Positions 57,343-61,601 of a stretch of DNA of 64,000 nt are shown here, one piece after another. The stretch spans positions 62,001 to 126,000 of IMG/VR virus record IMGVR_UViG_3300044653_000098. One strand, written 5' to 3'. The stretch is from a virus. Numbering within the stretch: position 1 is the first letter of the stretch; the number at the start of each line of letters is the position of its first letter. A model generated the notes under the pieces. That model was not told the DNA's origin, searched no databases, and saw nothing but the letters and a program-made list of their open reading frames with translations. A program made the translations under genes and the position numbers.

Positions 57343-57423
57343 GCCCCCGTAGCCCAAAACACCAAGAGGCAGAGGCGCCGCTTTAAAACCGGTCGAGTGT
57401 GGGTTCGAGCCCCACCGGGGGCA
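57343..57423 (+). tRNA. trnL(uaa): tRNA-Leu (anticodon UAA), enlarged D-loop
   Basis: Acceptor GCCCCCG/CGGGGGC, anticodon loop TTTAAAA, T-arm GTGGG TTCGAGC CCCAC, and CCA encoded at 57424-57426. The variable loop is short, unlike normal bacterial tRNA-Leu. The D-loop is about 8 bases longer than usual. There is a C-C mismatch at the top of the anticodon stem. It lies before the array promoter. Confidence 0.7.
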
Positions 57424-57460
57424 CCAGATGGAAGTTCTGCAAGATGGTCCGGAAAAAGAG

Positions 57461-57666: not shown

Positions 57667-57737
57667 GGGGAGCAGGCGACGGCTGCCGGCGGGATTCCAA
57701 ACCCCGCGACGAGTGGGTTCGACTCCTACGCACCCTG
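57667..57737 (+). tRNA. trnW(cca): tRNA-Trp-like (anticodon CCA), degenerate
   Basis: Anticodon loop TTCCAAA, T-arm GTGGG TTCGACT CCTAC. The acceptor GGGGAGC/GCACCCT has one A-A mismatch and one G-T pair, and the D-arm is irregular. Length 71. Possibly functional, possibly decaying. Confidence 0.55.
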
Positions 57738-57896
57738 CGGAGCACCACCCTGAAGGCTGGGGTGAACGTGCCAGCAGATTGATAACTCAACAGCGTGAGC
57801 ATCGCCCAGGGCGCCATCCCTGGGCACAAGCTCCCCCGTCCGCGCCTGCGCTCAGGTCTTCCTGGGTCACCATCGGGCACGGCCGGGGGAGATCAT
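57738..57896. other. Array spacer with hairpins, no gene seen
   Basis: About 160 bases without a T-arm or reading frame. GCCCAGGG/CCCTGGGC (57804-57811 and 57818-57825) is a perfect hairpin. CTCCCCCG and CGGGGGAG near the two ends could also pair. Smaller spacers at 59587-59683, 61129-61216 and 61435-61520 likewise show hairpins but no gene. Confidence 0.5.
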
Positions 57897-57968
57897 GGGG
57901 ATGAGAAGCTGAGGTAGCGACCGCGCCCTGCAAGCGTTGGTGACTCGGTTCGATTCCGAGCATCTCCA
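57897..57968 (+). tRNA. trnA(ugc): tRNA-Ala (anticodon UGC), C33
   Basis: Acceptor GGGGATG/CATCTCC contains the G3-U70 pair that identifies alanine tRNAs. The anticodon loop is CCTGCAA, read as UGC with C at position 33, and the T-arm is CTCGG TTCGATT CCGAG. The D-arm is short and irregular. A Cys (GCA) reading would break the anticodon stem. Confidence 0.65.
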
Positions 57969-58047
57969 CGAGACCGCCGCTTGGGGAACAGCTGGGATGG
58001 CCTGGTACCGGGCGTTACCCCCAGACCTGAAACGGAGCGGCGGCAGA

Positions 58048-58122
58048 CTGGGTATAGCTCAGGTTGGTCAGAGCGCGCGGTCCGGGGCCGCGAGGCCGCT
58101 GGTTCAAATCCAGCTACTCAGA
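58048..58122 (+). tRNA. trnP(cgg): tRNA-Pro (anticodon CGG), C33
   Basis: Acceptor CTGGGTA/TACTCAG, anticodon stem CGCGG/CCGCG with loop TCCGGGG, T-arm GCTGG TTCAAAT CCAGC. C replaces U at position 33. Its 3' end abuts the 3' half of the permuted tRNA. Confidence 0.8.
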
Positions 58123-58124
58123 CC

Positions 58125-58258
58125 GGGGGGAGATGCGGGTTCGAGTCCCGCCCTGTCCGTGAAAACTCTCCGCGGTGGCCGATCTGCAGGCGGCTGGCCG
58201 GCCAGGGCCCTGGTCAGGAGAGGGACAGGTAGTCCAATTGGCAGGACGCCCCCTACAT
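58125..58258 (+). tRNA. Candidate circularly permuted tRNA (3' half before 5' half)
   Basis: The 3' half comes first: GGGGG (58126-58130), a T-arm GCGGG TTCGAGT CCCGC (58135-58151) and acceptor strand CCTGTCC (58152-58158). The 5' half follows at 58223-58258: acceptor GGACAGG (58223-58229), D-arm GTCC/GGAC, and CCCCC (58249-58253). The acceptor strands pair 7/7 and the anticodon-stem strands 5/5. The 64-base link also pairs, CTCTCC (58166-58171) with GGAGAG (58217-58222), extending the acceptor helix. Neither half has another partner nearby. The anticodon cannot be assigned because the loop is broken between the halves. Confidence 0.6.
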
Positions 58259-58382
58259 TTTCTGGTGCGGCTTACCACGATCCGGCTGGGGTTCGGGAGA
58301 AGAACGTCCGGGAGGTCGAGCGCAATACGCGGGCGCAGTTCCGCGCAAACGGCGGCCGGATGCTGTGGGAGCACCAGAACAA

Positions 58383-58454
58383 CGGGATGTCGCGTAAGGG
58401 TTAGCGCGCCTGGTTTGGGACCAGGCAGTCAAGGTTCGAGTCCTTGTATCCCGA
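58383..58454 (+). tRNA. trnP(ugg): tRNA-Pro (anticodon UGG)
   Basis: Acceptor CGGGATG/TATCCCG, anticodon stem CCTGG/CCAGG with loop TTTGGGA, T-arm CAAGG TTCGAGT CCTTG, and CCA encoded at 58455-58457. Canonical U33. Confidence 0.85.
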
Positions 58455-58524
58455 CCAGCGGCCAGGATGTTCACCGTGTCCTGGTGCAGCGGAGGCTCGT
58501 TAGGGAGCACCCAACGGTGACGGC

Positions 58525-59021: not shown

Positions 59022-59120
59022 CTAGTCCTGGCCCGGCTTTCCCTGAATTGACAGGCGACCCCGAAGCGTGACGGCGCATAAGGGGACGGGCACGACGGTG
59101 CGGTCCGGCCGGGACTTCAT

Positions 59121-60416: not shown

Positions 60417-60488
60417 TGGCCAGTAGCACAAAGGTAAGTGCACCCGTCTTATAAGCGGGCGATACGGAGTCAAGACCCGGCTGGCCTA
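60417..60488 (+). tRNA. trnI(uau): tRNA-Ile (anticodon UAU), mismatched first pair
   Basis: Acceptor TGGCCAG/CTGGCCT pairs except T1-T72. D-stem GCAC/GTGC, anticodon stem CCCGT/GCGGG with loop CTTATAA, weak T-arm, CCA at 60489-60491. UAU reads AUA directly; bacteria normally use a modified CAU tRNA. Only one base separates it from its upstream neighbour. Confidence 0.75.
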
Positions 60489-61520: not shown

Positions 61521-61601
61521 GGCGGAGTGACCCGAGATGGCATGGGAGCGGTCTGTAAAACCGTCGCTTCGGCACGGCTGGTTCGATTCCAGCGTCCGCC
61601 A
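61521..61601 (+). tRNA. trnY(gua): tRNA-Tyr (anticodon GUA)
   Basis: Acceptor GGCGGAG/GTCCGCC with one mismatch, anticodon stem GCGGT/ACCGT with loop CTGTAAA, variable arm, T-arm GCTGG TTCGATT CCAGC. Confidence 0.8.

Follow-up and report, generated by a model that had tools for sequence, protein, structure and literature searches.

A circularly permuted tRNA-like element in a phage tRNA array as a candidate stand-alone tRNA mimic

What is encoded at a position of a phage tRNA array where two tRNA halves stand in reversed order, with a T-arm and 3' acceptor strand preceding a 5' acceptor strand and D-arm? The window, which is the whole 64,000-nucleotide stretch of DNA analyzed here, is part of a 141,724-base virus record carrying approximately 35 tRNA genes, and because the ends of that record (G000:C1:1-183 and 141542-141724) overlap by 183 bp with one mismatch, the phage genome is probably complete, although the record lists no completeness value. 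Our answer, which we hold with moderate confidence, is that the element is a stand-alone, phage-encoded, non-coding tRNA mimic that would be released by maturation of the flanking tRNAs, and is not a tRNA gene whose halves are spliced together.

The element occupies positions 58125-58253 of the plus strand, on which its parts and the features flanking it also lie, and it is found immediately 3' of tRNA-Pro(cgg) (58048-58122), whose own 3' maturation would set the 5' end of the element. It is a circularly permuted cloverleaf that begins with the 5' strand of a closing stem in the anticodon-stem position, GGGGG(G) (58125-58130), followed by the variable region AGAT (58131-58134), the T-arm GCGGG-TTCGAGT-CCCGC (58135-58151), the 3' acceptor strand CCTGTCC (58152-58158), a 64-nt hairpin linker (58159-58222), the 5' acceptor strand GGACAGG (58223-58229), the D-arm GTCC-AATTGGCA-GGAC (58232-58247), and finally CCCCC (58249-58253), the closing stem's 3' strand, paired with the initial G run. 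The linker is composed of a G and a TGAAAA bulge, two clamp strands and two internal hairpins, and the clamp CTCTCC/GGAGAG (58166-58171 and 58217-58222) extends the acceptor helix. The sequence-only reading of this locus had placed the two halves in this reversed order with coordinates that are exact to the base, and its acceptor strands do form seven of seven Watson-Crick pairs, with both the CCCCC pairing and the clamp present as it described. Beyond the closing stem is an open region in the position of an anticodon loop, TACATTTT (58254-58261), which is the least conserved stretch (TCTAGTT in the relative L002) and is without a conserved anticodon. Directly 3' of the element, and overlooked by that reading, a second hairpin domain of 116 nt (58262-58377), closed by CTGGTGC/GCACCAG, occupies the room up to the 3' neighbor tRNA-Pro(tgg) (58383-58457). 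A coding role for 58262-58377 was considered and rejected, for although the frame is open, the changes relative to L002 are mostly non-synonymous when judged by eye.

RNAfold and RNAalifold predict exactly this structure, with RNAfold giving the same fold for the window and for L002. The folding energy is unremarkable for such a GC-rich sequence (z = -0.29 in one test and -1.36 in another), and the case therefore rests on the pattern of pairing and on comparison with other phages. Neither half has a normal partner, as had been supposed, since ARAGORN and Rfam call no tRNA including either half above threshold. The halves might be remnants left by the deletion of tRNA genes, with their pairing a coincidence, an explanation to which the frequent rearrangement of tRNA arrays lends some credit: when acceptor strands of the array were combined in 1056 non-cognate ways, four combinations gave seven standard pairs with G-U allowed, and none gave seven Watson-Crick pairs. 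Intact tRNAs with the same GGACAGG/CCTGTCC acceptor exist, and those found are tRNA-Ser genes. The 6-bp clamp was reached by 0.56% of shuffled linkers, and a detector for the full permuted cloverleaf, which demanded a T-arm, acceptor, D-arm and closing stem, all paired, matched once in shuffled sequence totalling 1.72 Mb. Run on real sequence (1.7 Mb, counting both strands), it gave a few dubious matches, most with linkers of 60-129 nt, and as these mostly share the long-linker class of the window element, comparison is needed. The matches at L002:9273, L093 and L143/L144:8427 were regarded as chance, and the candidate G022, with a 61-nt linker, was dropped when its predicted fold gave no support.

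The only near relative in IMG/VR is L002, a 132.5-kb record; scans of IMG/VR with strings specific to the element found nothing beyond this contig, and blastn of the element against annotated phages and plasmids returned only short matches, mostly to T-arms. The element and the second domain, the latter also when taken singly, are 93% identical between the window and L002, a value that alone is no proof of constraint because some other spacers of the array are also 80-93% identical, and array recombination could be the source of part of the high identity. The linker is identical at 61 of 62 positions, with a single difference, and those differences that are located in stems preserve pairing. 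In L002 the element sits between Pro(tgg) and Phe, and in the window it sits between Pro(cgg) and Pro(tgg); judged from these two records, the unit has remained intact, bounded by tRNA genes on both sides, through a rearrangement of its array neighbors. In the more distant phage G003 a compact permuted cloverleaf fills the same slot, between Pro-CGG and Pro-TGG, and has the closing stem GCAGG/CCTGC where the window has GGGGG/CCCCC. The permuted order is conserved in related phages, and where an intact tRNA in this slot would have counted against the earlier reading, G003 too has a permuted element.

Compact elements of this type, without a basal stem, are present inside the tRNA arrays of other phages. 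G002 carries two, one of which lies between Ala(ggc) and Ala(cgc) with 1 + 4 nt to spare, and G013 carries one between Gly and Glu (3 + 7 nt spare). Microbacterium phage BAjuniper has two permuted tRNA-like modules in tandem with AA between them (L036:2495-2635), and the Streptomyces phages HaugeAnator (L148:4000-4074) and JPandJE (L149:1000-1074) have a compact cloverleaf between Pro(tgg) and Gly(tcc), with 3 + 8 nt spare, which lacks annotation in the public records. Ten closely similar Streptomyces phage records match, comprising these two, in which the flanking tRNAs were read, and eight others. Most compact elements start 0-3 nt past the upstream tRNA, and they mostly end 3-8 nt before the next one. 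When nine elements were aligned and their loops trimmed, standard pairs made up 98.4% of cells, and two-sided changes are found at 19 of 21 pairs, compared with 3-4 in slid controls, these counts being partly circular because the detector selected for pairing; the slot position and the site shared with G003 are outside its selection criteria. Two-sided changes occur in all four stems, with compensatory differences between phages in the acceptor pairs, bearing out the covariation on which the earlier reading had staked its pairing, and the two strands of the closing stem (58125-58130 and 58249-58253) covary as well. With the conservation in L002, the permuted element in the same slot of G003, the changes in all four stems and the recurrence in other phages set against it, accidental pairing of remnant halves is highly improbable and already disfavored. 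The element is not debris; it is real, conserved and structured, and its recurrence in several phages suggests that a recurring viral tRNA mimic, and not a functional tRNA gene, is encoded here.

What separates the window element from the compact ones is its 64-nt linker, where the relatives have loops of 5-11 nt, and the extra 116-nt domain, which is not present in the compact elements of other phages. Because the spacer before Pro(tgg) ends similarly in the window (GAACAA) and in G003 (GAAACAA), the long linker and second domain appear to have been inserted into an originally compact element. For the origin proposed earlier, by tandem duplication followed by loss of the outer halves, no supporting intermediate was seen.

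The reversed order and the perfect acceptor helix are also what would be expected of a permuted tRNA gene of the algal and archaeal type, in which the 3' half likewise precedes the 5' half and an intervening sequence separates the paired acceptor strands (PMC3978253), and in which the ends are joined by splicing enzymes via a BHB motif and the linker is removed to yield a decoding tRNA. In the window, however, the joined loop would be TACATTT, and in L002 it would be TCTAGTT, neither having U33 in the natural register, and while a shifted register yields U33, the resulting anticodons disagree (ACA versus CUA). No usable anticodon was found in the window element or in its compact relatives, the latter being without a common anticodon loop, and there is no match to RtcB (PF01139) or RNA_ligase (PF09414) in the self-closing 141,724-base phage genome; a search of the same genome for T4-type Rnl1 (PF09511), run without a working positive control, also gave no match. 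A tRNA gene joined by splicing, the precedent that the sequence-only reading had brought forward, is therefore very unlikely here. In comparison with ordinary tRNAs of phage arrays, the element shares the array, the slots and similar T- and D-arm sequences, but it has the half order reversed, no anticodon loop and a closed acceptor end. In the literature searched on permuted tRNA in bacteriophages and bacteria, the coverage of which was limited, there was no report of such an element.

The linker could alternatively be cut out by RNase P and a 3' nuclease with the pieces left unjoined, giving a two-piece tRNA-like RNA held together by the acceptor and closing stems, comparable with two-piece tmRNA. 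The acceptor/T-arm stack is of the kind recognized by RNase P, and it is followed by a discriminator-like G and then by the unpaired TGAAAA. The order of the pieces is that of permuted tmRNA, which has an acceptor piece, a spacer and a 5' piece with an additional domain (PMC3978253), and in the window the conserved second domain is joined to the 5' piece. The element nevertheless has a D-arm, it has A-U at pair 3-70 in place of the G3-U70 of tmRNA, and it has no Rfam match to tmRNA or permuted tmRNA, while its relatives have just the 5-11 nt loops and no CCA end. The clamp lengthens the acceptor helix, and since pairing between leader and trailer reduces RNase P efficiency (PMC9433436), it may hinder RNase P, which favors the prediction that the acceptor stays uncut. 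We consider a two-piece RNA unlikely.

A more relevant precedent, absent from the earlier reading, is the permuted tRNA-mimic domain of the bacterial Y RNA YrlA (Rfam RF02553), which has the same inside-out order of T-arm, capped acceptor helix, D-arm and a stem at the anticodon position (PMC8394870). The Rfam YrlA model aligns to the full length of the window element with 30.2 bits (E 7.6e-5), under its 69-bit gathering cut-off, and it scores the HaugeAnator element at 36.9 bits against the same cut-off and matches the BAjuniper elements in the tRNA-like part only. A Y RNA beside the Ro gene of Microbacterium phage Magritte also misses this cut-off, with 36.6 bits. A phage Y-RNA covariance model (R1) was set aside as not discriminating, for it gives the element 39.5 bits and neighboring ordinary tRNAs up to 40.7, a failure to separate them that is due to the long linker. 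Judged by DNA polymerase (35% identity), Magritte is the nearest among cultured phages, and it has a gene for a Ro-like protein beside its tRNA array, with three permuted tRNA-like RNAs upstream of that gene whose basal stems contain GGTTATC or a close variant of it. The same type of RNA is found in prophiGD43A-5, Phabba, FuzzBuster, Cashline and SM23, and a TROVE gene accompanies the motif-bearing RNAs in six of six phages. All of these appear to be YrlA-type phage Y RNAs, and mycobacteriophage Y RNAs are noted as previously reported in PMC12282133, which cites Chen 2014.

This raises the alternative that the window element is itself a genuine Y RNA of the YrlA type, partnered by a host-supplied Ro60, as might be argued from the shared permuted tRNA-like domain, from the Rfam YrlA match, and from the recurrence among actinophages of clear Y RNAs in or near tRNA arrays. 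However, the upstream strand that a Ro-binding stem would need is missing, as tRNA-Pro abuts the element, and the Ro-binding motif GGTTATC/GGTTACC carried by Magritte, Phabba, FuzzBuster, Cashline and others was not found near it. The 141,724-base genome has no TROVE (Ro60) match, in contrast with all six phages that have motif-bearing Y RNAs, and there is likewise no TROVE match in the searched genomes of the compact type, BAjuniper included. The element further differs from YrlA in its extra 3' domain and in its 64-nt linker, compared with 3-9 nt in YrlA-type RNAs. We give the Ro60-dependent alternative only a small chance of being right, and because the basal stem, Ro gene and motif are all missing, the element is not to be filed as a Y RNA, though its mode of action is most likely that of a Y RNA's mimic domain.

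Several further elements met in these comparisons are Y-RNA-like. The element G003b and that of RcXuper were set apart on account of repeated flanking motifs, different from the motif of the Magritte type, and their records have no PF05731 match. The elements at L139:781-850 (minus strand) and L037:3620-3840 have a repeated motif around CTTCCTTC/CATCCTTCTA, and no TROVE protein was found in these phages; they are possibly another type of Y RNA, or may have a divergent partner protein. Others, at L016:16029-16105, L030:2484-2562, L034:2463-2529 and L037:2294-2369, overlap features that public phage records list as tRNA-Arg, tRNA-Thr, tRNA-Asn and tRNA-Met, respectively, and these tRNA annotations are probably wrong.

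For the stand-alone mimic that we favor, the core is an inside-out tRNA consisting of a T-arm, an acceptor helix capped by the linker, a D-arm, a 5-bp stem at the anticodon-stem position and an open loop. The element occupies a tRNA slot and, once transcribed, would probably be freed by 3' processing of the upstream tRNA and by RNase P acting on the downstream one, a route suggested by the 0-3 nt spacing to the upstream tRNA. With its acceptor end closed and with no anticodon, the element would neither be charged nor decode, and it may instead act as a tRNA elbow lacking both an anticodon and a free acceptor end. By analogy, its partner might be PNPase, which is bound by the YrlA tRNA-like domain (PMC8394870), or another tRNA-binding protein, the assignment to PNPase being the least certain part of this proposal. 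In the Salmonella literature such a domain has been proposed as a possible competitor for anticodon nuclease (PMC7790460), and phage tRNA arrays have been read as a defense against host tRNA-cutting enzymes (PMC10264068), and a decoy role, on which the earlier reading had speculated, would fit these two precedents.

More tentatively, and at a little short of even confidence, we suggest that the window and compact elements belong to a recurring phage class of stand-alone inside-out tRNAs that sit in array slots, would be freed by maturation of the flanking tRNAs, have no anticodon, free acceptor end or Ro60, and would act as tRNA-elbow decoys or as ligands of a host tRNA-binding protein, for example PNPase or a tRNA-targeting defense enzyme. 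If some slots do encode tRNA mimics, then both the annotation of tRNA arrays and the theory of array-based defense need extending, and the tRNA mimic of Y RNAs would be shown to occur independently of Ro60. Direct tests of the class are feasible in cultured phages, since the HaugeAnator group (grown on Streptomyces griseus ATCC 10137) and BAjuniper (on Microbacterium foliorum) carry compact, unannotated versions.

Elsewhere in the array of the window, tRNAs missed by ARAGORN were recognized by eye as Leu(taa) (57348-57425), Trp(cca) (57668-57735) and Ala(tgc) (57893-57969), and, with additional support from Rfam, as Ile(tat) (60417-60488) and Tyr(gta) (61521-61601). The inter-tRNA spacer at 59023-59120 is 93% identical to L002, which is above most spacers, and it may represent a further non-coding RNA.
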